From Flectonema sp. DT1601 (lineage: Eukaryota; Euglenozoa; Diplonemea; Diplonemida; Diplonemidae): a stretch of DNA of 64,000 nt. The stretch covers positions 680,477 to 744,476 of the forward strand of contig OZ025841.1 in NCBI GenBank assembly GCA_964019425.1, in the 5' to 3' direction. Shown piece by piece: positions 5,954-50,190 of this stretch; position 1 is the first letter of the stretch, and each line of letters starts with the position of its first letter. Made by a program: the position numbers and the translations under genes. Under the pieces are notes generated by a model, which was given only the letters and a program-made list of their open reading frames with translations, was not told the DNA's origin and did no database searches.

Positions 5954-5987
<34 letters not shown>

Positions 5988-6273
5988 GCAACAACAACAA
6001 CAACACCAACAACAGCAGCAGCAACAGCTGCAGGCAATTCAGCACCCTCAGCAGCAGCCTCAGCCGCAGCAGCAGCAGCAACAACACCCTCAGCAGCAGC
6101 CACTGCAGCAGCATGCGAATGGTGTCAGCGTTGTTGAATTTTTTCGGGGAGGACAACAACAATCTGTGACTTCAAATACTGCTCCTGTCCCGCCTCACCC
6201 TCACGCTATTAATGCTGAAGATCTTGAGAGAGAGGCTCGTGGTCGGGGTATGTTTTCATTTAGTGACAACTAA
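4041..6273 (+). CDS. Polyglutamine CCCH zinc-finger protein, three exons
   Basis: Probably an RNA-binding regulator of mRNA; this follows from the CCCH family and is not shown directly. Exons 4041-5341, 5403-5556 and 5743-6273 give 661 residues. I chose ATG 4041, the first ATG after the acceptor at 4018-4019. A CxxC-x10-CxxC motif (C61, C64, C75, C78) comes first. A classic CCCH finger follows, C122-x7-C130-x5-C136-x3-H140, in the context GRCKYFQFGSCSKGDQC. The rest is dominated by long runs of Gln with His and Pro, coded by mixed CAG and CAA, continuing into all exons. The C-terminus (YASALRKGMPANQ, then FFRGG and RGRGMFSFSDN) is not low complexity and may be a short interaction motif. The long opposite-strand Leu/Ala/Cys frames are shadows of the CAG/CAA repeats. 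Confidence 0.85.
5342..5402 (+). other. Cis-intron 1 (61 nt) of the CCCH gene
   Basis: Donor GTATGTAATC, acceptor AACCAATCAG, phase 2 (codon CA|T). Unspliced translation stops within the intron. The exon beyond continues the Gln/His-rich composition in frame. Confidence 0.75.
5557..5742 (+). other. Cis-intron 2 (186 nt) of the CCCH gene, with an internal hairpin
   Basis: Donor GTATGTATTT, acceptor CTACCACAG, phase 0. It is about three times longer than the other introns seen here. It holds a perfect 7-bp inverted repeat, GTGATGC (5649-5655) and GCATCAC (5673-5679), with a 17-base loop. Confidence 0.72.
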
Positions 6274-15439: not shown

Positions 15440-15960
15440 GGTGTCATCGTCTGCCCTTAGGACCGACTGACCCGTGTCCAACTGCTGTTGACACGGAAAC
15501 CTTCTCCACTTCGGCCTTCAATGTTCTCCATTGAATATTCGCTACTACAACCAAGATCTGCACTCATCCACGCTCCAGAAAGGCTCACGCCAATTCCTTC
15601 GCGGCATGGATCACGCACTCCTACTCAAGGCCGGCTTTTGAATACCGGACCTCGGCCGACTATGGGTGGATCGCTTGAGCATCATCCATTTTCGGGACCG
15701 GTTCATTCGGCAGGTGAGTTGTTACACACTCATTATCGGATGCCGACTTCCATGGCCACCGTCCTGCTGTCTAGATGAACCGATACCCTTTGTGGGATCT
15801 GATGAGCGACCACTCGGACACCTTAAGTCAGCTCTCGGTTCATCCCGCGTCGCCAGTCCTGCTTACCAGAAGTGGCCCACTTGGAACCAAGATTCTTCGT
15901 CGGGGTTCAATTGAGCAACCCCGCGTTCACGCCCATTTAAAGTTTGAGAATAGGTACTCA
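15440..15960 (-). rRNA. Isolated fragment of cytosolic LSU (28S-type) rRNA, antisense to the genes
   Basis: Read on the minus strand, the segment is colinear with conserved eukaryotic LSU rRNA over about 500 bases. In order: CTATTCTCAAACTTTAAATG, GGGCCACTTCTGGTAAGCAG, GACAGCAGGACGGTGGCC, GTGTGTAACAACTCACC (the GTPase-associated centre region), GAAAATGGATG, GCAGATCTTGGTTGTAGTAG, GAAGGCCGAAGTGGAGAAGG, AACAGCAGTTGGACACGGG and GTCAGTCGGTCCTAAG. No other rRNA parts flank it. It is either a transposed rDNA fragment or one piece of a fragmented LSU rRNA. The conserved motifs are well preserved, so it is not an old ruin. Ends are approximate to about 20 bases. Confidence 0.85.
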
Positions 15961-19872: not shown

Positions 19873-20970
19873 ATGAAGCCGTACACTATTCAAGGAACAG
19901 CCTTCTTCAGGCACTACATTGTTGCTTCTCTTCTAAGTGGAAGAGGTCTCGTATTTGATAATATCCGGGTAGACGGTGAGAGGGTTGGTTTGATTGAACA
20001 CGAAGTTAATTTCTTGAGACTGGTCGACAAAATAACAAACGGAACTCAAATTGAGATTAATGAAACAGGAACCCGAGTAAGAATAAAACCCGGAATTGTT
20101 GCTGGCGGATACATAACTCATGAATGTGTAAAACAAAGAGGGATGGGATACTATTTAGAACCCTTATTAATGTTAGCACCATTCGCAAAGAAACCTATTG
20201 AAGTAACACTTGAGGGAGTTACAAATAATCAAATTGACATTGGAATCGACACTATCAGAACTGTTACTATTCCTCTGGTTGCAAAGTTTGGAGTCTCAGC
20301 ATCGCTAAAGATTAAAAGACGAGGTGTTGAACCTCTCGGAGGAGGACAAGTAATTCTAACTTGTCAAACAGTTCGTAAGTTAGGAACCATCTCGTTGGTT
20401 GAAAGAGGAAAGATAAAAAGAATTAGAGGAGTTGGATTCACCTGTAGAACATCAGCTGACCTGGTTAACAGATCAATAAGTACATCAAAAGGATTACTTT
20501 TAAAACTACTTCCTGACATCTTCATCGCAGCTGATAACTTTGTTGGAGCAGATGCTGGTAAGAGTCCCGGCTATGGGCTTACTCTTGTTGCTGAAAGTAC
20601 ATCAGATGAGTTTATTGGTCTGAGTGAAGAGTTAGTATGCGACCAGTCGGCAATGCAAAAACATGTAAACGCTGAAGACATAGGTTTAAATGCTGCAAAA
20701 CTACTTCTTGATCAAATTAAAAAAGGAGGATGTGTTGATACTCACCACCAGTCTATTTGTTTATTTTTAATGTCACTCGCTCCTGAGGAAGTTTCTCAAG
20801 TTCGTCTTAGTTCTTTAACACCAGCGGGTGATAATATGATTCAGATTTGTAGGGAATTCTTTTCTGTTTCATTTACATCATCCAAAGACGATACTTATTC
20901 ATACTCTCCAACATCAGTCTATTCTTGTATTGGTTCTGCTCTTATCAACGTAAGTAAGAAGAGTGCGTAG
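19873..20970 (+). CDS. RCL1: Rcl1-like RNA 3'-terminal phosphate cyclase-like protein
   Basis: Nucleolar protein of the RNA cyclase fold. In yeast Rcl1 works with Bms1 in the SSU processome and is needed for early pre-18S cleavages; it is not an active cyclase. This 365-residue protein matches family length. Typical segments are the N-terminal FRHYIVASLLSGR, HEVNFLRLVDKITNGT, a Gly-rich GRGMGYYLEPL-like stretch (here QRGMGYYLEPL), and KRRGVEPLGGGQV near the centre. ADAGKSPGYGLTLVAES lies in the C-terminal half. The start is supported by a T/C-rich tract and CCAG (AG 19854-19855) 17 bases upstream. Its nearness to a snoRNA array that may guide 18S methylation is suggestive only. Confidence 0.9.
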   Translation: MKPYTIQGTAFFRHYIVASLLSGRGLVFDNIRVDGERVGLIEHEVNFLRLVDKITNGTQIEINETGTRVRIKPGIVAGGYITHECVKQRGMGYYLEPLLMLAPFAKKPIEVTLEGVTNNQIDIGIDTIRTVTIPLVAKFGVSASLKIKRRGVEPLGGGQVILTCQTVRKLGTISLVERGKIKRIRGVGFTCRTSADLVNRSISTSKGLLLKLLPDIFIAADNFVGADAGKSPGYGLTLVAESTSDEFIGLSEELVCDQSAMQKHVNAEDIGLNAAKLLLDQIKKGGCVDTHHQSICLFLMSLAPEEVSQVRLSSLTPAGDNMIQICREFFSVSFTSSKDDTYSYSPTSVYSCIGSALINVSKKSA

Positions 20971-21143: not shown

Positions 21144-23168
21144 ATGTACGATGTGGGGACACCAACCCGTGAAGAGTTAGTCCATTATTGTAAGTGGTTG
21201 GGTGTTGGTGATTATGATCACGAACTTCGACACATTCTCGCTTCAGGTCTTCGAAGTAAACTTCCAGTCGGATGGAAACACTGCGCAACCCGACATGGTC
21301 GTTCTTATTATTTTGATACGTCAGCTGGTGTGTCGAAATGGAACCATCCAAATGATGAAAATTGTAAACAACAATATCTTCAAAAAAAAGAACTAAAAAG
21401 AAGATCACTATCTTGTGTAACAAACACAGAAAGACGACCTCAACCAGAAACTCCAAAAGGCCCATCGTCGGGTGTGTTTCACAGAGAGTGGAGTGATATT
21501 AGATGCGGGTCAATTGATACACCGAAAGTCAGTCTTTCTGATATTAAGGAAACCCGATTGTGTTTAGAAACACTGCTGACCTTTAATATGATGATGTCTC
21601 CTTTTGATCCGAGTACTCGAACGAAAAACTTATTGGGTTGTTGTTCTTCTTTGAAATCACCCTCGTCTGTTAAGTATATTCATAAAGGTACACCACAGGA
21701 AGTGGAATGTTCATCATCGCTCCCTTCTTGTCGTAAGTCTCGATTTCATTTAAACGCCAGTCACTCATTGCAATCAGTTCAGGAACCGTCAATATCATTG
21801 TGTAGTCGTAGTCACTCACCTGATGTTAGAATACAAGTTGAAAATAATTCCCCTCCTGCTGCCATGTCAGTTGTGAAGCCTCGTGAAGATCGCAGCCCAT
21901 CTTTGATTAGAGTTGGAGCGAATTTTGATTTAAATCAACCCGTTGATTCTCGTAGACAATTACAACTAACAAATGAATCAGATATTAAAACAGTTTGTCT
22001 ACAACAGACAGAAGGCTGTGAGATGTCATCACAACAATCTTCGAGTAGAACGTCACCTTCAAATGTCACCAGTCGGAGTACTTCAACGACAAGTAAGAAT
22101 CTAACTGTTGATGTCTTCTCTAATTGTAGAAGTGATCGAATGGTTGAAGAAATTCAAAATCAACTGAGCAGTCAGTCAGACTCATCCCAGTCATTGAGTG
22201 CTACAGTTCGTTGTACTTCACTTGGTGAGGAATGTAGCTGCTCTCCACATCCATCAGGTCGATGTCAAAGTGCTTCAAGTCAGTACCTGGCAGGACAGAC
22301 TTCGAATCGATTGAGTAATCGAACATCACATTCTTCAGTCGTAGGAGGCTGTCAAGAGTTGAGGGAAGAATCGCAATCGACGGAATGCTCTCCTCAATCT
22401 TTGAAATATCAAAGTGACAACAGATTGAGAGAACAACATGTTCAACACTCACCACGTGAGACGTCCATTCCCTCAACAGTCGGATGCGATGAACTCTCAT
22501 TATCGAATAGCAAACAATTAAATATGAACACTCTTAGTCAGTCGAAATCTGAATCAAAGTATCGAGAGACGCCATCACCTCATCCAATAGCTGAGTGTAG
22601 TTCAGTTCAGACACCTGTTACTCCATTGAGAATGTTATCACCTGAAGGAGTTCACTCTTCTTTAATTGTGAAGGAAGTCAATTCAAGAATCCAACGAGCT
22701 ACTTCAAACATATCAAAAAGTCATTCAGAACTCTCATCAACAACTGGTAGTCGTCTGAAGGAACTACAGCCCAGACGATTAGTTGGTGGAGTCTCACGTG
22801 AGACGCAGACCCTTCCAAACACTGAATGTTGTTTATGTACTTCAGGTATTCTGATGTCTGAAGTGAAGTCAACCAGAAATACAATAGAAGACTCCTACTT
22901 CAAGAGGTTGGCTCGTTTGGTTCAGAAGCGACGTAAACATCTCCGCTGCATCAGACAATCAACTCGCCACCTTCGGACTGTTGTCGATCAGAACTCTGAA
23001 GTTCTCTTGCGAAGAATTCAATTTGGAGTAGAGCCGGCTGTTCTACTAATGAATAATCAAACTTCTATTGCTCAACTTAAAGTAAACGTCTTGAAAACTG
23101 AGCTGTCCCTTCAGCACATCGACACCTATCACAAAATTAAAAAAATATACGCAGCGACTACTGCTTAA
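21144..23168 (+). CDS. CEP164-like WW-domain protein
   Basis: A 674-residue protein, Ser-rich after its N-terminus. Residues ~12-75 resemble the N-terminal module of CEP164: HYCKWLGVGDYDHELRHILA, then a WW domain LPVGW(44)...GRSYYFD...KW(66)NHP with the conserved Trp pair and Pro69. CEP164 is a distal-appendage protein of basal bodies, needed for docking and ciliary assembly, where the WW domain binds partners such as TTBK2. Residues ~90-560 are low-complexity Ser/Thr/Gln/Cys. The last ~110 residues (FKRLARLVQKRRKHLRCIRQ onward) are basic and helical, possibly coiled coil. The ATG lies six bases after CACGCAG (AG 21136-21137). Family assignment rests on the N-terminal 75 residues only. Confidence 0.75.
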   Translation: MYDVGTPTREELVHYCKWLGVGDYDHELRHILASGLRSKLPVGWKHCATRHGRSYYFDTSAGVSKWNHPNDENCKQQYLQKKELKRRSLSCVTNTERRPQPETPKGPSSGVFHREWSDIRCGSIDTPKVSLSDIKETRLCLETLLTFNMMMSPFDPSTRTKNLLGCCSSLKSPSSVKYIHKGTPQEVECSSSLPSCRKSRFHLNASHSLQSVQEPSISLCSRSHSPDVRIQVENNSPPAAMSVVKPREDRSPSLIRVGANFDLNQPVDSRRQLQLTNESDIKTVCLQQTEGCEMSSQQSSSRTSPSNVTSRSTSTTSKNLTVDVFSNCRSDRMVEEIQNQLSSQSDSSQSLSATVRCTSLGEECSCSPHPSGRCQSASSQYLAGQTSNRLSNRTSHSSVVGGCQELREESQSTECSPQSLKYQSDNRLREQHVQHSPRETSIPSTVGCDELSLSNSKQLNMNTLSQSKSESKYRETPSPHPIAECSSVQTPVTPLRMLSPEGVHSSLIVKEVNSRIQRATSNISKSHSELSSTTGSRLKELQPRRLVGGVSRETQTLPNTECCLCTSGILMSEVKSTRNTIEDSYFKRLARLVQKRRKHLRCIRQSTRHLRTVVDQNSEVLLRRIQFGVEPAVLLMNNQTSIAQLKVNVLKTELSLQHIDTYHKIKKIYAATTA

Positions 23169-23535: not shown

Positions 23536-25080
23536 ATGATGAAATTAATTTGCTAGTGCTGGCACCAGAGCAGAGTTGCTTCGGTAACGATGAGCACTTT
23601 ATATTATTACCGTAACTGAAAGACCGTAGCCTCCTCGTCGCTGTTTCCCTCTCTCCTTCGATGCTTCTCGTCTCCTTCTCAAATGATGAAATTAATTTGC
23701 TAGTGCTGGCACCAGAGCAGAGTTGCTTCGGTAACGATGAGCACTTTATATTATTACCGTAACTGAAAGTCTGTAGCCTTCTCGTCGCTGTTTCCCTCTC
23801 CTTCGATGCTTCTCGTCTCCTCATCAAATGATGAAATTAATTTGCTAGTGCTGGCACCAGAGCAGAGTTGCTTCGGTAACGATGAGCACTTTATATTATT
23901 ACCGTAACTGAAAGTCTGTAGCCTTCTCGTCGCTGTTTCCCCCTCCTTAGATGCTTCTCTTCTCCTTCTCAAATGATGAAATTAATTTGCTAGTGCTGGC
24001 ACCAGAGCAGAGTTGCTTCGGTAACGATGAGCACTTTATATTATTACCGTAACTGAAAGACCGTAGCCTTCTCGTCGCTGTTTCCCTCTCTCCTTCGATG
24101 CTTCTCGTCTCCTTCTCAAATGATGAAATTAATTTGCTAGTGCTGGCACCAGAGCAGAGTTGCTTCGGTAACGATGAGCACTTTATATTATTACCGTAAC
24201 TGAAATACCGTAGCCTCCTCATCGTTGTTTTCCCTCTCCTTCGATGCTTCTCTTCTCCTTCTCAAATGATGAAATTAATTTGCTAGTGCTGGCACCAGAG
24301 CAGAGTTGCTTCGGTAACGATGAGCACTTTATATTATTACCGTAACTGAAAGACCGTAGCCTTTTCGTCGCTGTTTCCCTCCCTCTTTCGATACTTCTCG
24401 TCTCCTTCTCAAATGATGAAATTAATTTGCTAGTGCTGGCACCAGAGCAGAGTTGCTTCGGTAACGATGAGCACTTTATATTATTACCGTAACTGAAAGA
24501 CCGTAGCCTTCTCGTCGCTGTTTCCCTCTCTCCTTCGATGCTTCTCGTCCTACTCAAATGATGAAATTAATTTGCTAGTGCTGGCACCAGAGCAGAGTTG
24601 CTTCGGTAACGATGAGCACTTTATATTTTTACCGTAACTGAAAGACCGTAGCCTTCTCGTCGCTGTTTCCCTCTCTCCTTCGATGCTTCTCGTCTCCTAC
24701 TCAAATGATGAAATTAATTTGCTAGTGCTGGCACCAGAGCAGAGTTGCCTCGGTAACGATGAGCACTTTATATTTTTACCGTAACTGAAAGACCGTAGCC
24801 TTCTCGTCGCTGTTTCCCTCTCTCCTTCGATGCTTCTCGTCTCCTACTCAAATGATGAAATTAATTTGCTAGTGCTGGCACCAGAGCAGAGTTGCTTCGG
24901 TAACGATGAGCACTTTATATTATTACCGTAACTGAAAGACCGTAGCCTTCTCGTCGCTGTTTCCCTCTCCTTCGATGCTTCTCTTCTCCTCTTCAAATGA
25001 TGAAATTAATTTGCTAGTGCTGGCACCAGAGCAGAGTTGCCTCGGTAACGATGAGCACTTTATATTATTACCGTAACTGA
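23536..25080 (+). ncRNA. Box C/D snoRNA tandem array 1, 11 copies
   Basis: Eleven 84-nt cores start at 23536, 23683, 23828, 23973, 24120, 24266, 24413, 24558, 24705, 24852 and 24997, spaced 145-147. Within each core: box C ATGATGA at 1-7 (perfect RUGAUGA), D'-like CAGA at 36-39, C'-like ACGATGA at 52-58 (one mismatch) and box D CTGA at 81-84. Bases 22-34 (TGCTGGCACCAGA) complement the SSU rRNA 530 loop sequence TCTGGTGCCAGCA. The core is almost invariant. The ~61-base linkers are C/T-rich and drift, which is expected of a transcribed small RNA and not of a plain satellite. Box C/D RNAs guide 2'-O-methylation with fibrillarin in the nucleolus. No promoter is seen; long primary-transcript processing is likely. 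Confidence 0.82.
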
Positions 25081-25985
25081 AAGTCTCGTCGCTGTTTTCC
25101 TTCTGTTCGATGCTTCTGTAAGAATCGTAAGACTAATTATTGGTACTGGGACAGAAAAATAGGTGCTTGGGCACATTTGTTTTTACTGCTGCTCACTTAA
25201 TCCAAGTAGTTTCTTACTCATCCAGTTTACACTAATGTTATTTAAGAATAGTTAGATTGCTAACAATAAAGCAGGGGTATTGTAGACAAGTGTTTCATAT
25301 GAACTTATCGCGGGAACATTCCTTCAGAAAAGTTACGGATGTTCTGTTTCTGTGATTCCAATCTGACGACTGATATGTTTTCTGTTGTTTGCTTTAAGTA
25401 ATAGTTTAATTGGGACTATGTGTGACCTGTGACATGTGTGACCTGTGACATGTGCGTTTGATTAGATTGGTAGGCGTGTCTTCTGTGGGTCTGTTTCGTT
25501 AAGCTGGTGGTCACAATCTGGTGTTTCTATTCGAAGTGAAACTTTTCGAAAACCACCCCAATAGACTTCGTGGTCGGAAAGAAACCACGCGATAGTTATT
25601 ATGACTACGCAATGGATGACTAGTACCTGACATACGTAATGGTTGGGTTCTTGGGAATGGTTGTTTTTGTGTGAACGATGATCATTAAAATTATCTCAAC
25701 TTTTTTGGTTTCCTTCCGACATTGTACGATAAGTGTGAGGTTGTGCTCATTCCCTTGGAAAAGTTTCTTCGAGCCAAGTTGTAATTTATTCAACAAAAGT
25801 CTGGAAGGAACTCGTACTCTCGTTTTTTAACTTACGTATTTCCCACTTTGAATTGGTGCTATAATGCATTATATTAACTTCCCTTTACAGGCTTACAATG
25901 TAACGATCTATTTACTTATGATAAATAATAATGACTCTTCACATCATATTTACTATTCATTTTAATTATCACCTCTCTCGTCAAC
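25081..25985 (+). other. Unique spacer between the two snoRNA arrays, with hairpins
   Basis: The first ~40 bases are a degraded linker; the rest is unique. A direct duplication of TGTGACCTGTGACATG lies near 25428-25452. Two adjacent stem-loops are visible. GGTGGT (25506-25511) pairs with ACCACC (25552-25557) and encloses GTTTC...GAAAC. CGTGGT (25569-25574) pairs with ACCACG (25584-25589). Between them lies ATAGACTT. A hairpin followed by AGA recalls the single-hairpin H/ACA RNAs of trypanosomes, but this is weak. No protein gene is seen. Confidence 0.35.
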
Positions 25986-28900
25986 ATGATGAAATTAATT
26001 TGCTAGTGCTGGCACCAGAGCAGAGTTGCTTCGGTAACGATGAGCACTTTATATTTTTACCGTAACTGAAAGTCTGTAGCTTCTCTTCCGTGTTTTACCC
26101 TCCTCCGATGCTTCTCTTCTCCTTCTCAAATGATGAAATTAATTTGCTAGTGCTGGCACCAGAGCAGAGTTGCTTCGGTAACGATGAGCACTTTATATTA
26201 TTACCGTAACTGAAAGTCTGTAGCCTTCTCGTCGCTTTTCCCCTCTCCTTCGATGCTTCTCATCTCCTCTTCAAATGATGAAATTAATTTGCTAGTGCTG
26301 GCACCAGAGCAGAGTTGCTTCGGTAACGATGAGCACTATATATTTTTACCGTAACTGAAAGACCGTAGCCTTCTCGTCGCTGTTTCCCTCTCCTTCGATG
26401 CTTCTCTTCTCCTTCTCAAATGATGAAATTAATTTGCTAGTGCTGGCACCAGAGCAGAGTTGCTTCGGTAACGATGAGCACTATATATTTTTACCGTAAC
26501 TGAAAGACCGTAGCCTTCTCGTCGCTGTTTCCCTCTCCTTCGATGCTTCTCTTCTCCTTCTCAAATGATGAAATTAATTTGCTAGTGCTGGCACCAGAGC
26601 AGAGTTGCTTCGGTAACGATGAGCACTTTATATTATTACCGTAACTGAAAGTCTGTAGCCTTCTCGTCGCTTTTCCCCTCTCCTTCGATGCTTCTCATCT
26701 CCTCTTCAAATGATGAAATTAATTTGCTAGTGCTGGCACCAGAGCAGAGTTGCTTCGGTAACGATGAGCACTATATATTTTTACCGTAACTGAAAGACCG
26801 TAGCCTTCTCGTCGCTGTTTCCCTCTCCTTCGATGCTTCTCTTCTCCTTCTCAAATGATGAAATTAATTTGCTAGTGCTGGCACCAGAGCAGAGTTGCTT
26901 CGGTAACGATGAGCACTTTATATTATTACCGTAACTGAAAGTCTGTAGCTTCTCTTCCGTGTTTTACCCTCCTCCGATGCTTCTCATCTCCTCTTCAAAT
27001 GATGAAATTAATTTGCTAGTGCTGGCACCAGAGCAGAGTTGCTTCGGTAACGATGAGCACTTTATATTTTTACCGTAACTGAAATACCGTGGTTTTCTCG
27101 TCGCTGTTTCCCTCTCCTTCGATGCTTCTCTTCTCCTTCTCAAATGATGAAATTAATTTGCTAGTGCTGGCACCAGAGCAGAGTTGCTTCGGTAACGATG
27201 AGCACTTTATATTATTACCGTAACTGAAAGTCTGTAGCCTTCTCGTCGCTTTTCCCCTCTCCTTCGATGCTTCTCATCTCCTCTTCAAATGATGAAATTA
27301 ATTTGCTAGTGCTGGCACCAGAGCAGAGTTGCTTCGGTAACGATGAGCACTTTATATTATTACCGTAACTGAAATACCGTAGCCTCCTCATCGTTGTTTT
27401 CCCTCTCCTTCGATGCTTCTCTTCTCCTTCTCAAATGATGAAATTAATTTGCTAGTGCTGGCACCAGAGCAGAGTTGCTTCGGTAACGATGAGCACTTTA
27501 TATTATTACCGTAACTGAAAGTCTGTAGCCTTCTCGTCGCTTTTCCCCTCTCCTTCGATGCTTCTCATCTCCTCTTCAAATGATGAAATTAATTTGCTAG
27601 TGCTGGCACCAGAGCAGAGTTGCTTCGGTAACGATGAGCACTTTATATTTTTACCGTAACTGAAATACCGTGGTTTTCTCGTCGCTGTTTCCCTCTCCTT
27701 CGATGCTTCTCGTCTCCTTCTCAAATGATGAAATTAATTTGCTAGTGCTGGCACCAGAGCAGAGTTGCTTCGGTAACGATGAGCACTTTATATTATTACC
27801 GTAACTGAAAGTCTGTAGCCTTCTCGTCGCTTTTCCCCTCTCCTTCGATGCTTCTCATCTCCTCTTCAAATGATGAAATTAATTTGCTAGTGCTGGCACC
27901 AGAGCAGAGTTGCTTCGGTAACGATGAGCACTATATATTTTTACCGTAACTGAAAGACCGTAGCCTTCTCGTCGCTGTTTCCCTCTCCTTCGATGCTTCT
28001 CTTCTCCTTCTCAAATGATGAAATTAATTTGCTAGTGCTGGCACCAGAGCAGAGTTGCTTCGGTAACGATGAGCACTTTATATTATTACCGTAACTGAAA
28101 GTCTGTAGCTTCTCTTCCGTGTTTTACCCTCCTCCGATGCTTCTCATCTCCTCTTCAAATGATGAAATTAATTTGCTAGTGCTGGCACCAGAGCAGAGTT
28201 GCTTCGGTAACGATGAGCACTTTATATTATTACCGTAACTGAAAGTCTGTAGCCTTCTCGTCGCTTTTCCCCTCTCCTTCGATGCTTCTCATCTCCTCTT
28301 CAAATGATGAAATTAATTTGCTAGTGCTGGCACCAGAGCAGAGTTGCTTCGGTAACGATGAGCACTTTATATTTTTACCGTAACTGAAATACCGTGGTTT
28401 TCTCGTCGCTGTTTCCCTCTCCTTCGATGCTTCTCTTCTCCTTCTCAAATGATGAAATTAATTTGCTAGTGCTGGCACCAGAGCAGAGTTGCTTCGGTAA
28501 CGATGAGCACTTTATATTATTACCGTAACTGAAATACCGTAGCCTCCTCATCGTTGTTTTCCCTCTCCTTCGATGCTTCTCTTCTCCTTCTCAAATGATG
28601 AAATTAATTTGCTAGTGCTGGCACCAGAGCAGAGTTGCTTCGGTAACGATGAGCACTTTATATTATTACCGTAACTGAAAGTCTGTAGCCTTCTCGTCGC
28701 TTTTCCCCTCTCCTTCGATGCTTCTCGTCTCCTCTTCAAATGATGAAATTAATTTGCTAGTGCTGGCACCAGAGCAGAGTTGCTTCGGTAACGATGAGCA
28801 CTTTATATTATTACCGTAACTGAAATACCGTAGCCTCCTCATCGTTGTTTTCCCTCTCCTTCGATGCTTCTCTTCTCCTTCTCAAATGATGAAATTAATT

Positions 28901-31578
28901 TGCTAGTGCTGGCACCAGAGCAGAGTTGCTTCGGTAACGATGAGCACTTTATATTATTACCGTAACTGAAAGTCTGTAGCCTTCTCGTCGCTTTTCCCCT
29001 CTCCTTCGATGCTTCTCATCTCCTCTTCAAATGATGAAATTAATTTGCTAGTGCTGGCACCAGAGCAGAGTTGCTTCGGTAACGATGAGCACTTTATATT
29101 TTTACCGTAACTGAAATACCGTGGTTTTCTCGTCGCTGTTTCCCTCTCCTTCGATGCTTCTCGTCTCCTTCTCAAATGATGAAATTAATTTGCTAGTGCT
29201 GGCACCAGAGCAGAGTTGCTTCGGTAACGATGAGCACTTTATATTATTACCGTAACTGAAAGTCTGTAGCCTTCTCGTCGCTTTTCCCCTCTCCTTCGAT
29301 GCTTCTCATCTCCTCTTCAAATGATGAAATTAATTTGCTAGTGCTGGCACCAGAGCAGAGTTGCTTCGGTAACGATGAGCACTATATATTTTTACCGTAA
29401 CTGAAAGACCGTAGCCTTCTCGTCGCTGTTTCCCTCTCCTTCGATGCTTCTCTTCTCCTTCTCAAATGATGAAATTAATTTGCTAGTGCTGGCACCAGAG
29501 CAGAGTTGCTTCGGTAACGATGAGCACTTTATATTATTACCGTAACTGAAAGTCTGTAGCTTCTCTTCCGTGTTTTACCCTCCTCCGATGCTTCTCATCT
29601 CCTCTTCAAATGATGAAATTAATTTGCTAGTGCTGGCACCAGAGCAGAGTTGCTTCGGTAACGATGAGCACTTTATATTATTACCGTAACTGAAAGTCTG
29701 TAGCCTTCTCGTCGCTTTTCCCCTCTCCTTCGATGCTTCTCATCTCCTCTTCAAATGATGAAATTAATTTGCTAGTGCTGGCACCAGAGCAGAGTTGCTT
29801 CGGTAACGATGAGCACTTTATATTTTTACCGTAACTGAAATACCGTGGTTTTCTCGTCGCTGTTTCCCTCTCCTTCGATGCTTCTCTTCTCCTTCTCAAA
29901 TGATGAAATTAATTTGCTAGTGCTGGCACCAGAGCAGAGTTGCTTCGGTAACGATGAGCACTTTATATTATTACCGTAACTGAAATACCGTAGCCTCCTC
30001 ATCGTTGTTTTCCCTCTCCTTCGATGCTTCTCTTCTCCTTCTCAAATGATGAAATTAATTTGCTAGTGCTGGCACCAGAGCAGAGTTGCTTCGGTAACGA
30101 TGAGCACTTTATATTATTACCGTAACTGAAAGTCTGTAGCCTTCTCGTCGCTTTTCCCCTCTCCTTCGATGCTTCTCGTCTCCTCTTCAAATGATGAAAT
30201 TAATTTGCTAGTGCTGGCACCAGAGCAGAGTTGCTTCGGTAACGATGAGCACTTTATATTATTACCGTAACTGAAATACCGTAGCCTCCTCATCGTTGTT
30301 TTCCCTCTCCTTCGATGCTTCTCTTCTCCTTCTCAAATGATGAAATTAATTTGCTAGTGCTGGCACCAGAGCAGAGTTGCTTCGGTAACGATGAGCACTT
30401 TATATTATTACCGTAACTGAAAGTCTGTAGCCTTCTCGTCGCTTTTCCCCTCTCCTTCGATGCTTCTCATCTCCTCTTCAAATGATGAAATTAATTTGCT
30501 AGTGCTGGCACCAGAGCAGAGTTGCTTCGGTAACGATGAGCACTTTATATTATTACCGTAACTGAAATACCGTAGCCTCCTCATCGTTGTTTTCCCTCTC
30601 CTTCGATGCTTCTCTTCTCCTTCTCAAATGATGAAATTAATTTGCTAGTGCTGGCACCAGAGCAGAGTTGCTTCGGTAACGATGAGCACTTTATATTATT
30701 ACCGTAACTGAAAGTCTGTAGCTTCTCTTCCGTGTTTTACCCTCCTCCGATGCTTCTCTTCTCCTTCTCAAATGATGAAATTAATTTGCTAGTGCTGGCA
30801 CCAGAGCAGAGTTGCTTCGGTAACGATGAGCACTTTATATTATTACCGTAACTGAAAGTCTGTAGCTTCTCTTCCGTGTTTTACCCTCCTCCGATGCTTC
30901 TCTTCTCCTTCTCAAATGATGAAATTAATTTGCTAGTGCTGGCACCAGAGCAGAGTTGCTTCGGTAACGATGAGCACTTTATATTATTACCGTAACTGAA
31001 AGTCTGTAGCCTTCTCGTCGCTTTTCCCCTCTCCTTCGATGCTTCTCATCTCCTCTTCAAATGATGAAATTAATTTGCTAGTGCTGGCACCAGAGCAGAG
31101 TTGCTTCGGTAACGATGAGCACTTTATATTTTTACCGTAACTGAAAGACCGTAGCCTTCTCGTCGCTGTTTCCCTCTCCTTCGATGCTTCTCTTCTCCTT
31201 CTCAAATGATGAAATTAATTTGCTAGTGCTGGCACCAGAGCAGAGTTGCTTCGGTAACGATGAGCACTTTATATTATTACCGTAACTGAAAGTCTGTAGC
31301 TTCTCTTCCGTGTTTTACCCTCCTCCGATGCTTCTCTTCTCCTTCTCAAATGATGAAATTAATTTGCTAGTGCTGGCACCAGAGCAGAGTTGCTTCGGTA
31401 ACGATGAGCACTTTATATTATTACCGTAACTGAAAGTCTGTAGCCTTCTCGTCGCTTTTCCCCTCTCCTTCGATGCTTCTCATCTCCTCTTCAAATGATG
31501 AAATTAATTTGCTAGTGCTGGCACCAGAGCAGAGTTGCTTCGGTAACGATGAGCACTTTATATTATTACCGTAACTGA
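25986..31578 (+). ncRNA. Box C/D snoRNA tandem array 2, 39 full copies
   Basis: Same 84-nt core as array 1. Core starts: 25986, 26130, 26275, 26420, 26565, 26710, 26855, 26999, 27144, 27289, 27435, 27580, 27725, 27870, 28015, 28159, 28304, 28449, 28595, 28740, 28886, 29031, 29176, 29321, 29466, 29610, 29755, 29900, 30046, 30191, 30337, 30482, 30628, 30772, 30916, 31061, 31206, 31350 and 31495. Boxes C, D', C' and D and the SSU-complementary guide are the same in all copies I read. The few core variants cluster upstream of box D (TTATATTATT, TTATATTTTT or ATATATTTTT). Linkers fall into about five types, such as GTCTGTAGCCTTCTCGTCGC, GTCTGTAGCTTCTCTTCCGT and TACCGTGGTTTTCTCGTCGC. Confidence 0.82.
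27435..30336. repeat. Higher-order repeat inside array 2 (about 1451 bp, 10 units)
   Basis: The order of linker variants recurs after exactly ten units. For example the GAAATACCGTAGCCTCCTC linker near 27371 recurs near 28822 and 30273, and cores 27580, 28304 and 28449 pair with 29031, 29755 and 29900, each 1451 bases apart. Half-period (~725 bp) similarity is also present. Recent block duplication or unequal exchange enlarged the array. Confidence 0.7.
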
Positions 31579-31639
31579 AAGTCTGTAGCCTTCTCGTCGC
31601 TTTTCCCCTCTCCTTCGATGCTTCTCGTCTCCTCTTCAA

Positions 31640-31678
31640 ATGATGAAATTAATTTGCTAGTGCTGGCACGAGAGCAGA
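31640..31678 (+). pseudogene. Truncated last copy of the snoRNA unit
   Basis: It begins with a perfect box C and matches the core for 39 bases, then diverges into unique DNA before C' and D. It also carries the only change I saw in the SSU guide: C31 to G (base 31670), the base five upstream of the proposed D' box. This is where the array ends, 213 bases before the sirtuin ATG. Confidence 0.75.
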
Positions 31679-31890: not shown

Positions 31891-33063
31891 ATGGAGGGTG
31901 ATGACGACCCGATTTTGCTTAAGCGATTCCGTCGTAAGGGAGAACGTAGATCAGTTGATGGAGTAAAGAGAAAGAGACGAATAATAGATCCTTACTTCCA
32001 AGCTGTGAATATCATGCTGGAGGCAAAGGGAAAGGTAATGGTTTTTACTGGAGCAGGTGTAAGTCAAGAAAGTGGAATCCCAACATACAGAGACCCAGGT
32101 GGGATATGGGAATCTTTCGACAAGAAGAAGGTTGGTCACATTAAAGGATTTGTATCTAATCCACTGATGTGTTGGCGTTTTGAGTTCGAGCTTCACAAGC
32201 TACTAAAGCAGTGCGGACCTAACAAGGGTCACAGAGCCCTTGCTGCTCTGGAAGAATTGGAAGTAATTCAGGGAATTATTACCCAAAACGTGGACAGCCT
32301 TCATCAAGATGCTGGTTCAGTAAATGTTCACGAACTCCACGGTAATGAAATGAGGGGAGTTTGTCTTAAAGAAGATTGTGGTAAGAAGTTTCATGCCACC
32401 GAAGTTTTTAAAAAACTCAAATGGATGGATGACGAAGGATGTATTCTGGAACAGAATGTTCCTCCGTGTCCCGGCAAGCCCTCGAAATCTGAGAAAGCAG
32501 CAGAAGAAGAAAGTAATGATGACGATGACGACAGTGACAGTGGAAGTGATTCAGAAACCTCGTCGAGTTCTTCTGATGCGACGAGCATTTCCTCTTCAGT
32601 CTCGAGCACATCGTCGGGAAGTTCTGAACAAATTGATTACGAAAGAATCTTTGCTCAGCCCAGTAAACAAACTGCCGTATCTGAAGCGCCAAAGTGTGCT
32701 TGCGGTGGAATCATTAAACCTGACGCAATATACTTTGGAGAACCTCTCGATTCTTCAGTAAGACGCGCCTGTAAACAGTTAAGTAAAGACTCTCGAGTTG
32801 TTGTTGTGGTTGGCTCAAGTTGTGTAGTTTCCCCAGCCAATAAATTACCGCTTCTTGTCAAAGCTTCCGGTGGAAAGATAATCGAAGTAAACGTTAAGGA
32901 AACTATTATGACTCGACACTCATGTTTAAACCTCCGACACACATCAGGTAATGCACTCTCTGATTTATTAGTGACTACAGTCGCACTCATCTCTGCTGAT
33001 GCTGCTGTCTTAGCGATTGTCGCAGTCTCTCTCATCTCATCATACTCTGATGAGGAAGAGTGA
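31891..33063 (+). CDS. Sirtuin (Sir2-family NAD-dependent protein deacylase)
   Basis: A 390-residue protein that uses NAD+ to remove acyl groups from lysine. The Rossmann motif FTGAGVSQESGIPTYR starts near residue 52, the TQNVD motif is at 131-135 and the catalytic His is H150 in HELHG. IKPDAIYFGE follows the second zinc pair. Zinc ligands are C158 and C163 (CxxxxC), then C269 and C271 (CxC); both spacings differ from the usual CxxC. About 100 residues separate the pairs, including a Ser/Asp/Glu-rich insertion (roughly 195-255). The C-terminus (about 350-383) is strongly hydrophobic and ends SSYSDEEE, perhaps a membrane anchor or helix. ATG 31891 is the first in frame; no clear acceptor is visible close by. 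The target protein and compartment are unknown. Confidence 0.9.
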   Translation: MEGDDDPILLKRFRRKGERRSVDGVKRKRRIIDPYFQAVNIMLEAKGKVMVFTGAGVSQESGIPTYRDPGGIWESFDKKKVGHIKGFVSNPLMCWRFEFELHKLLKQCGPNKGHRALAALEELEVIQGIITQNVDSLHQDAGSVNVHELHGNEMRGVCLKEDCGKKFHATEVFKKLKWMDDEGCILEQNVPPCPGKPSKSEKAAEEESNDDDDDSDSGSDSETSSSSSDATSISSSVSSTSSGSSEQIDYERIFAQPSKQTAVSEAPKCACGGIIKPDAIYFGEPLDSSVRRACKQLSKDSRVVVVVGSSCVVSPANKLPLLVKASGGKIIEVNVKETIMTRHSCLNLRHTSGNALSDLLVTTVALISADAAVLAIVAVSLISSYSDEEE

Positions 33064-40320: not shown

Positions 40321-41463
40321 ATGCAGGTTTCTGTGACATTCCCAGATTCAGGACTCCCGACGGTATCATTCACAGCTGGTGCTGATTCTCTCGTGAGCGA
40401 CGTGCTGACTGCGGCAGCTGGTGAGTGGGATATCGATCCGGAAGATGTCGAACTCACTTTCGCTGGTGATCTTCTTTGCGAAACTAGCGGGTTGCTTGCC
40501 GTTCATGGAGTGGGCCCAAACGCAGAGCTGGAGGTGCAAAAGAAGCGATTTCGGGTATTCGGCAAACGTTGGCTTATTGATAAGACAATGCGAGAGAAGC
40601 TGCTCCTCAGACTAGAAGGAAGTAATTACCTTCACCTGGATACTCCCACATTCTCAAAGGACGGTAGTCTCAGCTTTGACGGAGATTTGCTTCCTCCGAT
40701 GGTCAAATCCATCTGGTTTCGCAATTCCAATTCTGAAATAAACATTGTTACAAAAAAGTTCTTATCAAACTCTTCAATCACTGACCTTAACCTTTCAGGT
40801 CTCAATGCTGTTACAACTATTGGAGATAACTTCTTGTCACGCTGTTCTTCAATCACCGCACTTGACCTTTCAGGTCTCAATGCTGTTACCGCTATTGGAT
40901 GTGAATTCTTGTCAGACTGTTCTTCAATCACTGCGCTCAGCTTTTCAGGTCTCAATACTGTTACAACTATTGGAGTTAACTTCTTGTCACGCTGTTCTTC
41001 AATCACCGCACTTGACCTTTCAGGTCTCAATTCTGTTACAACTATTGGAAATTATTTCTTGTCACGCTGCTCTTCAATCACTACACTTGACCTTTCAGGT
41101 CTCAATGCTGTTACAACTATTGGAAATTATTTCTTATCACGCTGTTCTTCAATCACCGCACTTGACCTTTCTGGTCTCAATTCTGTTACAACTATTGGAA
41201 ATTATTTTTTGTCACGCTGTTCTTCAATCACTACGCTTGACCTTCCCAATACTGTTACCGCTATAGGAAATTATTTTTTGTCAAACTGCTCTTCAATCAC
41301 TACGCTTGACCTTTCAGGTCTTCAGGCTGTTACAACTGTTGGGTATGGATTCTTGTTGGACTGTTCTTCAATCACTGCGCTCAACCTTTCAGGTCTTAGT
41401 AAGTCTAGTCGTCTTTCGGATGTCGGTTTGTTCTTCCTCAATGGCTGCGAAGGACTTGAATGA
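40321..41463 (+). CDS. Ubiquitin-like/BspA-type leucine-rich-repeat protein, copy 1
   Basis: 380 residues from ATG 40321; the frame is open upstream, but the acceptor at 40277-40278 and homology with the paralogue at 46050 fix the start. Residues ~1-75 (MQVSVTFPDSGLPTVSF...EDVELTFAGDLL...AELEV) resemble a ubiquitin-like beta-grasp domain. A basic linker follows (RFRVFGKRWLIDK). From about residue 145, nine ~24-residue repeats of the form CSSITALDLSGLNAVTTIG plus four to five residues fill the rest; this is the BspA-like LRR pattern. The seventh repeat is shortened. No signal peptide or TM segment is seen, so it is probably intracellular. Such LRRs mediate protein binding. DNA repeats of ~75 bp make it prone to slippage and conversion. 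Confidence 0.85.
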   Translation: MQVSVTFPDSGLPTVSFTAGADSLVSDVLTAAAGEWDIDPEDVELTFAGDLLCETSGLLAVHGVGPNAELEVQKKRFRVFGKRWLIDKTMREKLLLRLEGSNYLHLDTPTFSKDGSLSFDGDLLPPMVKSIWFRNSNSEINIVTKKFLSNSSITDLNLSGLNAVTTIGDNFLSRCSSITALDLSGLNAVTAIGCEFLSDCSSITALSFSGLNTVTTIGVNFLSRCSSITALDLSGLNSVTTIGNYFLSRCSSITTLDLSGLNAVTTIGNYFLSRCSSITALDLSGLNSVTTIGNYFLSRCSSITTLDLPNTVTAIGNYFLSNCSSITTLDLSGLQAVTTVGYGFLLDCSSITALNLSGLSKSSRLSDVGLFFLNGCEGLE

Positions 41464-42065: not shown

Positions 42066-42688
42066 ATGCAGGTTTTTGTGACGTGTTCGGATTTGGGATT
42101 CGCCGCGGTATCAGTCACGGCTGGTGCTGATTCCCTTGTGAGCGACGTGTTGACGGCAGCGGCTGGCGAGTGGGATATCGATCCAGAGGAAGTTGAACTG
42201 TCGTTCGCTGGTGACACCCTTTGCGAAATGAGCGGCTAGCAGATCGTGGAGTGGGTACAGACAGCGAGTTGGAAATGTGCAGGAAGCGGTTTCGTATATT
42301 CGGTAAATACTGGTTAGTTGATGATTCAAAACGCGTGAAGCTGCTTCGTTGGCTAAGAGAACACAATGAGGAATACTTATGCCTTGACACCACAACATTC
42401 ACAGAAGATGGTTGCCTCAGTATTGAGGGTGATTGGCTTCCTTCAGTTGCGGAACGGCTTTCTTTTAGCAATTCAAATTCCGACATCACAGTCATCTCAC
42501 TAGCTACCACTATTGGAGATTATTTCTTGTCTAACTGTTCCAAAATCACTTCTGTTAACCTTTCATGTTTTAGCAATGTAACCACTATTGGAGATTTCTT
42601 CTTGTATTCGTGTTCACAAATTACTTCTGTTGACCTTTCATGTTTCGGCAATGTAACCGCAGTTGGAGATTTCTTCTTGAGAAACTAA
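42066..42688 (+). pseudogene. Broken copy of the ubiquitin-like/LRR gene
   Basis: It starts MQVFVTCSDLGFAAVSVTAG, close to the paralogue at 46050, and follows a CCTCAG acceptor (AG 42045-42046). At ~42225-42235 the sequence TGCGAAATGAGCGGCTAG is one base shorter than the paralogue's TGCGACAGTGATCGGCTAG. The frame therefore meets TAG at 42237-42239 and homology resumes in another frame up to 42688. Only about three LRRs remain (ATTIGDYFLS and following), and the C-terminal cap is lost at a stop after FFLRN. A single-base assembly error could explain the frameshift but not the short C-terminus. Confidence 0.75.
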
Positions 42689-46049: not shown

Positions 46050-47276
46050 ATGCAAGTTTTCGTGACGTGTCCGGATTTAGGATTTCCTGCGGTGTCAGTC
46101 ACAGTTGGTGCTGATTCTGTTGTGAGCGACGTGTTGACGGCAGCGGCTGGCGAGTGGGATGTCGATCTGGAGGAAGTTGAACTGTCGTTCGCTGGTGACA
46201 CCCTTTGCGACAGTGATCGGCTAGCAGATCATGGGGTGGGTGCAAACAGCGAGTTGGAAATATGGGAGAAGCTGGTTCGGATCTTCGGTAAATGTTGGTT
46301 TGTTGATGATAGAAAAAGGGAGAAGCTGCTTCTTTGGATCAGAGACCACATTACGGAGGTTTTATGTCTGGACACTCCCACATTCTCGGTGGATGGTTGC
46401 CTCACTATTGACGAGGGGTTGCTTCCTTCAGATGCCAAACGGATTTCCTTCCGCCATTCAAATTGCAACAGCACGGTCATCTCACAGGTTACTGCTATTG
46501 GAGATGACTTCTTGTCTTATTGTTCAAAAATCACTTCTCTTGACCTTTCCAGTCTTAGTAGTGTGACCAGTATTGGACATAGTTTTTTGTCTTATTGTTC
46601 AAAAATCACTTCTCTTGACCTTTCCAGTCTTAGTGTCACCAGTATTGGAAATGATTTCTTGCGTAATTGTTCAGAAATCACTTCTCTTGACCTTTCAGGT
46701 CTTAGTTGTGTCACCAGTATTGGAGATAATTTCTTGCGTAATTGTTCAAAAATCATTTCTCTTGACCTTTCCAGTCTTAGTAGTGTGACCAGTATTGGAC
46801 ATAGTTTTTTGTTAAATTGTTCAGAAATCACTTCTCTTGACCTTTCAGGTCTTAGTTGTGTCACCAGTATTGGAGATAATTTCTTGCGTAATTGTTTAAA
46901 AATCACTTCTCTTGACCTTTCCAGTCTTAGTAGTGTGACCAGTATTGGACATAGTTTTTTGTCTTATTGTTCAAAAATCACTTCTCTTGACCTTTCCAGT
47001 CTTAGTAGTGTCACCAGTATTGGAGATAATTTTTTGTTTAAATGTTCACAAATCACTTTTCTTAACCTTTCAGGTCTTAGTAGTGTCAACAGTATTGGAG
47101 ATTATTTCTTGTCTGAGTGTTCAAAAATCACTTCTCTTGACCTTTCCGGTCTTAGTGATGTGAAGGAAATTGGTGAGCGCTTCTTCAAAGAATGCAGCGC
47201 CCTGAAGACTGTTCAGCTACCTCAAAATAATAGAGCTCTTTTTGAACGGTCTGTTAAATGTAAAGTGTTGAATTGA
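46050..47276 (+). CDS. Ubiquitin-like/BspA-type leucine-rich-repeat protein, copy 2
   Basis: 408 residues. The N-terminal ~75 residues (MQVFVTCPDLGFPAVSVTVG...EEVELSFAGDTL...SELEI) form a ubiquitin-like domain homologous to the copies at 40321 and 42066. About ten LRRs of the form CSKITSLDLSSLSSVTSIG plus ~5 residues follow. A final cap CSALKTVQLPQNNRALFERS is followed by the end KCKVLN. Alternate repeats are nearly identical in DNA (pairs about 144-147 bp apart), which points to recent internal duplication by pairs. One repeat (LSSLSVTSIG) is one residue short. The start has a clean acceptor at 46012-46013 and an A-rich leader. No signal peptide. Partner binding is the likely role; the substrate is unknown. 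Confidence 0.86.
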   Translation: MQVFVTCPDLGFPAVSVTVGADSVVSDVLTAAAGEWDVDLEEVELSFAGDTLCDSDRLADHGVGANSELEIWEKLVRIFGKCWFVDDRKREKLLLWIRDHITEVLCLDTPTFSVDGCLTIDEGLLPSDAKRISFRHSNCNSTVISQVTAIGDDFLSYCSKITSLDLSSLSSVTSIGHSFLSYCSKITSLDLSSLSVTSIGNDFLRNCSEITSLDLSGLSCVTSIGDNFLRNCSKIISLDLSSLSSVTSIGHSFLLNCSEITSLDLSGLSCVTSIGDNFLRNCLKITSLDLSSLSSVTSIGHSFLSYCSKITSLDLSSLSSVTSIGDNFLFKCSQITFLNLSGLSSVNSIGDYFLSECSKITSLDLSGLSDVKEIGERFFKECSALKTVQLPQNNRALFERSVKCKVLN

Positions 47277-49138: not shown

Positions 49139-50190
49139 TCACTTGTTCAAGTAATTTGTGACTCTGCGAAGATGCTCCAAGCTAAACCAGTACTTCCCAG
49201 GTGGAACTCCAACAATGGGGCTGGCATGCAACAGGCGACCTCCTAAGGACTCCAACTCCGATGCAGTCAATGAATCAAGGTTGGTGTTCTTGATTTTTCT
49301 CCCAATCTTGGTCCCCAAGCTCACCCTGTCTGTATGGTGATCAAAGGTGACCCCCAAGAACTCATACTCCGGAGAGAGATCCACAGTATCACTTGGTTTC
49401 CATGTGATGTTTGCCATTCTGGCAAAGGAGTCCATCCTCTCAGCTGCGCATTTAACCTTCTCCTTGGGACCAAATAACCTAATGTTATCAATCCACCAGT
49501 GAATCCCAACTTCCTCCTCCGCAAATTCTTTCTTAACGAACAGCGGGTCACCAGCAACTACTGCAGCGATGGTGTTCATCAGTTCTGGGGCACACACATG
49601 ACCCATCGGAAGTCGAGTCAAAGAATAAACCTTCCCAGCTGAATCAGAAAAACTGAAGAGTGAAGTTGACTCCTCAGGTATGCAGACCTGGTAGAATCCA
49701 GTCTTGAAGTCCCTGCAGGATGCCACCTCCGAATGTACAGCATCCAGGTAACAAGGTGCTGCAGTGGAACGAATGGTTCATATCCCCCAGACGAGATCAG
49801 TTCGTTCTGCTCTTTTGTCCAGGGGATGAACCGCTGTCTGTTCCCCGTCTCCCTCTCCTCATACACTGTAAATGGTACATTCCGAGACAGCGGTACAGAA
49901 TCACTCGGCACTGCAATACCACACTCAACCAATTCTCTTGCATGTTTCCCTGCCAACTTCGAAGTTGCCCTCGAGAGCCGTGCATTGACAGAAGAATCCT
50001 TAGGAAAGAAGGTGAGGTCCCAAACATAATCAAACCTCTTCAGGACCGATGGCAGCATCCTCCCCCTCACAGCTGAAACATCCATCTTAGGTGTAGGGGC
50101 CACATGTAGTGGTGAAGATATCTCCTCCTTCGTTATGGGAATGCGCGTGCTCTTTGTTCTGTGTGTGAACTGGGCTGCTACGCTCCGCAT
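49139..50190 (-). pseudogene. Reverse transcriptase, frameshifted
   Basis: The start is probably ATG 50190-50188 (MRSVAAQFTHRTKSTRIP), 35 bases beyond the recombinase stop. The first frame covers the fingers (RFIPWTKEQNEL). It continues in a wrong frame after ~49750, while the palm resumes in another frame: CRDFKTGFYQVCIPE, TRLPMGHVCAPELMNTIAA, then HWWIDNIRLFG, and EFLGVTF in the thumb region. The usual YxDD box reads WIDN. The frame ends with TGA at 49139-49141 in YLNK*, directly before RNase H in the same frame, so that stop breaks an RT-RH fusion. Confidence 0.82.

Follow-up and report, generated by a model that had tools for sequence, protein, structure and literature searches.

A tandem array of about 50 copies of a predicted box C/D guide RNA gene in the diplonemid Flectonema sp. 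DT1601

Layout and variation of the array

The window (the whole 64-kb stretch of DNA analysed here) contains 50 full copies of an 84-nt core, all on the + strand and arranged in repeat units of 144–147 bp, with linkers of 60–63 nt across the two blocks (Table 1). This bears out the first-pass annotation, which had proposed ~50 copies of one core in ~145-bp tandem units within a single 8-kb array, except that the 50 copies, although indeed gathered in ~8 kb, do not form a single uninterrupted run, since 905 bases of other sequence split them into blocks of 11 and 39 copies. Within block 2, a higher-order period of 434 bp, corresponding to three units, was identified by Tandem Repeats Finder. 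Across the assembly, a 151-base unit gave at least 51 BLAST matches, all at this locus, and the guide-plus-D' motif described below (up to one mismatch) occurred 51 times, always in the array and on the + strand.

Table 1. Features of the array locus in window coordinates (elements of the core are given for copy 1)
Feature	Position	Strand	Remarks
WW-domain protein gene, upstream	21144..23168	+	same strand as array
Tandem block 1	23536..25080	+	11 copies of the 84-nt core, linkers 61–63 nt
Box C, ATGATGA, core nt 1–7	23536..23542	+	intact in 50/50 copies
D' guide, core nt 21–34	23556..23569	+	14-nt antisense to own SSU 608–621; exact in 50/50 full copies
Box D', CAGA, core nt 36–39	23571..23574	+	alternative D' CAGA at core nt 31–34
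D'-C' spacer, core nt 40–51	23575..23586	+	12 nt
Box C', ACGATGA, core nt 52–58	23587..23593	+	one base off RUGAUGA
D-side guide region, core nt 59–80	23594..23615	+	harbors two of the core's three variable sites
Box D, CTGA, core nt 81–84	23616..23619	+	intact in 50/50 copies
Example linker, after copy 1	23620..23682	+	pyrimidine-rich, variable
Spacer between blocks 1 and 2	25081..25985		905 bases, non-array sequence
Tandem block 2	25986..31578	+	39 copies of the 84-nt core, linkers 60–62 nt
Truncated 51st copy (decayed edge copy)	31640..31678	+	one substitution in guide
SIR2-family protein gene, downstream	31891..33063	+	same strand as array

The two flanking protein genes belong to a longer run of like orientation: 17 of the 19 ORFs of at least 150 aa in the first 50 kb (some of them overlapping) are on the + strand, and the two exceptions adjoin an end satellite. 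This AAACCCGC repeat was considered as a telomere and rejected, its orientation being opposite to that of the canonical telomere at the ends checked; it is named end satellite here because its C-rich strand runs to the right end, against the canonical arrangement.

Within the array, 35 of the 50 cores are identical to the consensus, and variation is confined to positions 45 (2 copies), 64 (5 copies) and 71 (14 copies) of the core. Overall, 3 of 84 core columns are variable vs. 31 of 63 in the linkers, pairwise diversity is 0.008 vs. 0.124, and 5 haplotypes were counted among 50 cores vs. 16 among 48 linkers, so that the earlier description of a nearly invariant core between variable ~61-base linkers holds. 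The linkers are pyrimidine-rich (C+T 76% across the 48). We consider it very improbable that the repeat is an untranscribed satellite with chance C/D-like motifs: tandem layout and higher-order repeats would be in keeping with such an origin, but satellite turnover by itself should not leave one 84-nt segment intact while the linkers diverge and gain indels.

Box C/D anatomy and rRNA complementarity of the core

The core is organized in the order C – guide – D' – C' – D, opening on ATGATGA and closing on CTGA, which confirms the architecture first annotated. Because the variable core sites all fall outside the boxes, ATGATGA, both CAGA motifs, ACGATGA and CTGA are intact in all 50 copies. The D' assignment was right in that CAGA is present, but the motif occurs twice in the core and the second occurrence (nt 36–39) is the better candidate. 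Spacers between D' and C' normally measure 3–9 nt, which places the 12 nt of the array core on the long side; paired by hand, this spacer together with bases 52–53 could form a GUUGC-UUCG-GUAAC hairpin, which is not the predicted fold. Folding of the core was no better than that of shuffled sequences (z = −0.48), and neither unit nor core had significant structure.

A terminal stem is a frequent but non-defining feature of box C/D snoRNAs. In the 50 window copies, uninterrupted pairing next to the boxes extends over 0–2 bp, and terminal pairing in the other arrays described below is 0–1 bp, except for 3 bp in 5 of the 11 copies of core A on contig C17. Weak or absent terminal stems across all the arrays seen may represent a lineage trait. 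The covariance-model check proposed with the first annotation did not favor a known family: no snoRNA family reached Rfam gathering cut-offs, the window yielding an LSU rRNA fragment only. Permissive searches yielded nothing but weak matches to CD-box families; one of them, over 601 bases, returned 11, of which 10 were on the + strand and all were far below cut-off.

Upstream of D', core nt 21–34 are antisense over 14 of 14 positions to the organism's own 18S rRNA (SSU 608–621) and end one base before the box. Antisense of at least 14 nt anywhere in SSU, 5.8S or LSU was reached by 19 of 20,000 dinucleotide shuffles of the core, a test which counted antisense alone and demanded no neighboring box, and the longest same-sense match of the core to rRNA was 8. 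The antisense takes in SSU 621, which is a C here and a G in the common eukaryotic sequence; the exact common eukaryotic SSU motif had 0 matches in the Flectonema genome, in which the variant motif is present. We take SSU 608–621 to be part of the 530-loop helix, a functional-centre helix. The core thus combines boxes C and D, a D'/C' pair and rRNA antisense at D', as in box C/D snoRNAs, in which D' and C' are often degenerate and a guide of about 10–21 nt precedes D or D', and such antisense adjoining D' also argues against a satellite with chance motifs. Given 14 nt of SSU antisense one base before D', the core is, on its sequence, most likely a 2'-O-methylation guide with SSU G611 as its predicted target.

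On the D side, no exact rRNA antisense of at least 9 nt was found in SSU, 5.8S or LSU, and a weak pairing is possible with the nearby SSU 624–631 (7 Watson-Crick pairs and one G-U). This pairing bears on another role for the RNA, which we regard as rather unlikely: a box C/D snoRNA acting mainly in pre-rRNA folding or processing, like U3 or U14, by holding the 530-loop strand open, with the many copies providing one RNA per nascent rRNA. A 14-bp duplex would cover part of the presumed functional-centre helix, the D-side region could add its weak contact just beyond it, and abundant trypanosome snoRNAs, tested singly, affected rRNA processing (PMC6411936). However, the match to SSU 624–631 scores under two other SSU places, equals one LSU place and is shorter by one pair in those 14 copies that have T at core position 71, and the D' guide is positioned exactly like a methylation guide. 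Copy number alone is no sign of a processing role, since the two-core unit described next is also multi-copy.

A second array and its relatives

A random sample of 20 stretches (200 kb of 89.5 Mb, two contigs) met one other tandem array, located on contig C17, with two different C/D cores (A and B) per unit and ORFs of its own strand on either side. Its cores carry antisense stretches of 15 nt to LSU, 12 nt to SSU and 11 nt to SSU. A 138-base query running from the last part of core B through the linker into core A, and so holding no whole core, located the A/B pair on contigs C87 and C6 as well. In the 1,801 bases of C87 and 681 bases of C6 that were read, the cores hardly differ from those on C17, whereas the C6 linkers are largely different in sequence; the C6 copies were counted from partial matches to the query. 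The contrast between core and linker is uneven in this second array: the B-to-A linker is close to core B in substitution diversity (0.023 vs. 0.013), with gaps in 24 of 86 linker columns. Cores A and B nearly unchanged on three contigs, next to linkers largely different on one, again speak against a satellite, and the box C/D snoRNA reading of the first annotation gains support both from the own-18S antisense before D' and from this similarly built array.

A scan of both strands of 250 kb that required C-like and D-like boxes in addition to at least 11 nt of antisense gave 73 hits, all of them inside the two arrays (51 in the window and 22 in the second array). With one array in 20 stretches and relatives on two contigs, tandem snoRNA arrays look like the usual layout in the Flectonema genome, as far as the 200 kb sampled go, and the 50-copy array is the extreme single-gene case among them. 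Guides for four universally methylated sites were not found in the genome; these guides may differ in register or boxes, or be absent. A search for U3 (RF00012) gave no match in this genome, and none in the control genomes either.

Proposed expression and comparison with known systems

Taken together, the array very probably consists of ~50 genes for one predicted box C/D guide RNA of ~84 nt. The same-strand gene run is the observed layout, and the units would probably be read through within a long RNA polymerase II transcript, which would be cut inside the pyrimidine-rich linkers, after which trimming would proceed up to boxes C and D, at which snoRNP proteins would protect the RNA. The D' guide would pair with SSU 608–621 in the 530-loop helix, and fibrillarin would 2'-O-methylate the nucleotide opposite the fifth base before D', i.e., SSU G611 if D' is core nt 36–39 or C616 if it is core nt 31–34.

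Alternatively, each unit could be an independent gene, driven by a polymerase III promoter (A-/B-box-like) in the linker, as in yeast SNR52. The linker stretch TTCGATGC is highly conserved (0.85–1.0 at columns 122–129) and resembles a B box, linkers on C6 carry GTTCGATTC, and a four-T run is present in 34 of the 48 window linkers. In the window, the B-box-like element is nonetheless missing its initial G, the C87 linkers read do not have the element, such a match should be fairly frequent by chance (hand estimate), 14 of 48 linkers have no four-T run, and none of the 48 has a five-T run, all of which makes independent polymerase III units improbable.

For the preferred polycistronic guide array, copies would have expanded by unequal crossing-over, with selection keeping cores alike (the core/linker contrast is the observed part), and high copy number would raise output where polycistronic transcription offers no strong individual promoter. 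A dosage or processing role of the 50 copies is conjecture. Diplonemids are unicellular marine flagellates. These protists are abundant in the sea (PMC10161547). It is tempting to speculate, as a possibility we hold to be less likely than not, that their default is one tandem, rDNA-like array per rRNA-guide snoRNA or pair, in which copy number sets dosage, concerted turnover leaves linkers free, and nearly stemless cores are released from gene-dense polycistrons, 50 copies then marking an RNA for which demand is exceptionally high at a decoding-centre (530-loop) helix. The array and its relatives would permit asking whether gene copy number sets guide dosage, and how euglenozoan polycistrons release snoRNAs without terminal stems; paralogous arrays with near-unchanged cores also mark RNA ends closely, which would aid annotation where family models fail.

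Tandem structural RNA genes are already described in a diplonemid, as SL RNA-5S rRNA-U2 snRNA units occur up to 27 in a row in Diplonema papillatum, but these are not snoRNAs, a word absent from the main text of that paper (PMC10161547). The paper also describes 'repeat-bounded' tandem arrays adjacent to D. papillatum genes. Our literature search found no diplonemid nuclear snoRNAs. Among other Euglenozoa, trypanosomatid snoRNA genes are likewise clustered in same-strand runs, and the Flectonema array resembles them in having several tandem copies within such a run. Trypanosomatid clusters mix C/D and H/ACA RNAs, however, whereas the window unit holds one C/D core per 145 bp, repeated 50 times, and the C17 unit two. 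For Euglena, tandem multi-copy guide snoRNA arrays were reportedly described by Moore and Russell in 2012. Euglena gracilis U3 is multi-copy, with at least 14 variants, and the U3 study searched for a tandem arrangement of these genes without detecting any (PMC2784804). Flectonema shares with Euglena the multi-copy state of snoRNA genes and differs in its near-homogeneous, tightly packed cores.

Outside Euglenozoa, SNORD115/116 repeat units are of kilobase size. SNORD115, SNORD116 and SNORD113/114 are mammalian examples of a box C/D RNA repeated in large tandem arrays (PMC11028025). RNAs of the SNORD115/116 type are orphans with no rRNA target, encoded in introns at imprinted eutherian loci, whereas the Flectonema core has an rRNA antisense guide and lies in 145-bp units. 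The copy number first described as extreme is therefore less so beside the large C/D repeats of mammals and the multi-copy U3 of Euglena, but the array does stand out by its compactness and its single-gene unit with an rRNA target.

Copy number and conservation of the window array

In a direct scan of the window the 84-nt core occurs in full 50 times, always on the + strand, in keeping with the ~50 copies proposed by the first-pass annotation. Its single run at 23536..31678 did not hold: the copies are there, but in two blocks of 11 and 39 (Table). The core sequence is identical in 35 of the 50 copies, with the remainder differing at core positions 45, 64 and 71 only, and the linkers (60-63 nt) take 16 distinct forms among 48. 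When 48 units were aligned, pairwise diversity was 0.0078 in the core vs. 0.124 in the linker, with 3/84 vs. 31/63 variable columns, which bears out the near-invariant core and varying linkers noted from the sequence at first sight, as do the intact boxes for the box C/D architecture. The unit appears confined to this place: BLAST against the 89.5-Mb assembly (at least 51 matches) and a guide-plus-D' motif search (51 matches) placed every match at the window array and reported none elsewhere.

Table. Positions of the array components, related arrays and other features (window numbering unless a core, contig or locus is named; rRNA numbering follows this genome's own rDNA)
Feature	Position	Strand	Remarks
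Box C	core 1-7		intact in every copy
Box D'	core 36-39		intact in every copy
Box C'	core 52-58		one base off; intact in every copy
Box D	core 81-84		intact in every copy
Block 1	23536-25080	+	11 full cores
Gap between blocks 1 and 2			905 bases, non-array
Block 2	25986-31578	+	39 full cores
Truncated core copy	starts 31640		
L043 array	L043:4700-7700 = C17:1104700-1107700		paired box C/D cores with rRNA antisense
L043 stretch scanned	C17:1100001-1110000		
C87 array relatives	C87:80585-88256		paired box C/D cores with rRNA antisense
C6 array relatives	C6:1356737-1409715		paired box C/D cores with rRNA antisense
Glutamine-run proteins	4041-6273		by eye
LSU rRNA piece (LSU 1090-1590)	15455-15955	-	501 bases, intergenic
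RCL1	19873-20970		
BspA-type genes	40321-41463, 42506-42679, 46050-47276		75-bp tandem repeats
Reverse transcriptase-like ORFs	49139-50190	-	two, by eye; just before AAACCCGC array
(AAACCCGC)n array	50492-64000		13.5 kb; right end of contig C62

A predicted guide to the small subunit rRNA

Core nucleotides 21-34 are antisense to SSU 608-621 (14/14), the sole exact antisense match of at least 9 nt in the genome's own rDNA, and stop one base short of box D'; a single substitution abolishes this match in the truncated edge copy. When the core was shuffled 20,000 times with its dinucleotide composition preserved, 19 shuffles reached 14 nt or more of antisense anywhere in SSU, 5.8S or LSU, counting matches irrespective of a neighbouring box. 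Guides of this type direct methylation to the target nucleotide opposite the fifth base upstream of D or D', a rule that predicts SSU G611 as the site, or C616 with the first CAGA taken as D'. The predicted target segment is the 530 loop (helix 18), and a role of the RNA in processing or folding at that loop is possible. At SSU 621 the guide is complementary to a C, whereas G occupies this position in the common eukaryotic sequence; the exact common motif had no match in this genome, which carries the C variant. For the D-side guide region, which contains two of the three variable core sites, comparison with the genome's own rRNA yielded no convincing partner, the best candidates being short or G-U-rich, and the core RNA is taken to be a single guide acting via D'.

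Paired C/D cores in other arrays

Antisense to rRNA (at least 11 nt) with one of six D-like boxes at most 2 nt after and an exact RTGATGA at most 75 nt before was sought on both strands of 250 kb, made up of window positions 1-50,480 and twenty 10-kb stretches of contigs C15 and C17. Matches were confined to two places, the window array (51, i.e., the 50 full copies and the truncated one, the latter through 11 nt to a different SSU place) and locus L043 on C17 (22). There, a two-core unit is repeated 11 times, with core A (79 nt) identical in 11/11, core B (76 nt) in three forms, and linkers variable in both length and sequence. The A-to-B linker is far more diverse than core A (0.246 vs. 0.000), but the B-to-A linker exceeds core B only slightly in substitution diversity (0.023 vs. 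0.013) and varies chiefly by gaps (24/86 columns). Core A carries a 15-nt antisense to LSU 2339 ahead of its D box and, in its D' half, an 11-nt antisense to SSU 477; core B has 12 nt antisense to SSU 1700 ahead of an internal CTGA. This array has same-strand ORFs of 829 and 505 aa on its two sides, and the upstream one extends into the first core, so that the array may begin in that ORF's 3' region or in an intron.

When 138 bases of this array, running from the end of core B through the linker into core A, were used as query, contig C87 matched at no fewer than two places and C6, through the first part of the query, in at least 17 partial matches. Full cores read from short stretches (2 A and 2 B on C6, 6 A and 6 B on C87) revealed the A/B pair on both contigs, with cores A at most one substitution from the C17 form, save for a C87 copy lacking one base, and C6 cores B separated from the C17 forms by 3 to 4 differing sites. 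The linkers of C87 and C17 are related; on C6 the A-to-B linker and the greater part of the B-to-A linker hardly resemble their C17 counterparts, the B-to-A linkers sharing 22 bases directly after core B and 5 directly before core A. The clearest indication that the cores, rather than the spacers, would be the product comes from this between-array comparison. Terminal stems in the arrays read were absent or at most 3 bp (3 bp in 5/11 C17 A copies).

Gene context, proposed production and comparison with known systems

The window array shares its strand with most surrounding genes (17/19 ORFs of at least 150 aa in the first 50 kb are on the + strand), and its linkers are pyrimidine-rich (76% C+T). 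Passages of a review describe polycistronic Pol II transcription of trypanosomatid snoRNA clusters (PMC6562600). The units here are probably likewise transcribed polycistronically by Pol II, the transcript cleaved within the pyrimidine-rich linkers and the RNA trimmed back to its boxes, after which it would guide methylation of SSU G611; copy number would raise output where genes are without strong promoters of their own. A Pol III promoter in each unit is less likely, because 14/48 linkers have no run of four T.

Elsewhere in the window, the BspA-type leucine-rich repeat genes are clustered, the assignment coming from a Pfam match for the first; by eye, the two long ORFs have a similar non-repeat N-terminal region, and the first glutamine-run protein (long runs from CAG/CAA repeats) a CCCH-like motif. 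The two reverse transcriptase-like ORFs, which look like fragments of such an enzyme, had no Pfam match. A 32-base form of the AAACCCGC repeat has 56,786 + 58,057 exact matches in the genome. Six further contig ends were read over 200 bases each: the start of C15 and the end of C33 are pure AAACCCGC arrays, the start of C62 carries a degenerate form, and the ends of C15, C17 and C6 consist of other sequence. Since its C-rich strand is oriented toward right ends, the reverse of a canonical telomere, the array would be an end satellite or a reversed telomere-like repeat; no three-fold TTAGGG run was seen in the loci examined.

The encoded RCL1 protein shares 66-68% identity with proteins apparently from diplonemids, to judge by their source names (among them Diplonema papillatum and one given as Rhum, taken as Rhynchopus humris), and 60% with one labelled Hpha (taken as Hemistasia). 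The intergenic LSU piece, 99.8% identical to the rDNA copy, represents a recent rDNA fragment insertion, and divergent SSU copies also occur at loci L009, L013, L017 and L018. In the rDNA unit, a single unbroken LSU match spans the entire Rfam model, which agrees with the 28S of D. papillatum, reported as unsplit in its genome paper (PMC10161547), and differs from kinetoplastids and euglenids. Together with the RCL1 identities, this makes the source very likely a diplonemid. The main text of that paper does not mention snoRNA, and a diplonemid and snoRNA literature search, with thin coverage of subscription papers, found neither term in the title or abstract of any paper listed. Already known are box C/D snoRNAs, the clustering of snoRNA genes in euglenozoans and the large tandem C/D repeats of mammals; new here are a compact single-gene unit present 50 times, with a predicted 18S target, and, within the literature searched, any array of nuclear snoRNA genes from a diplonemid.
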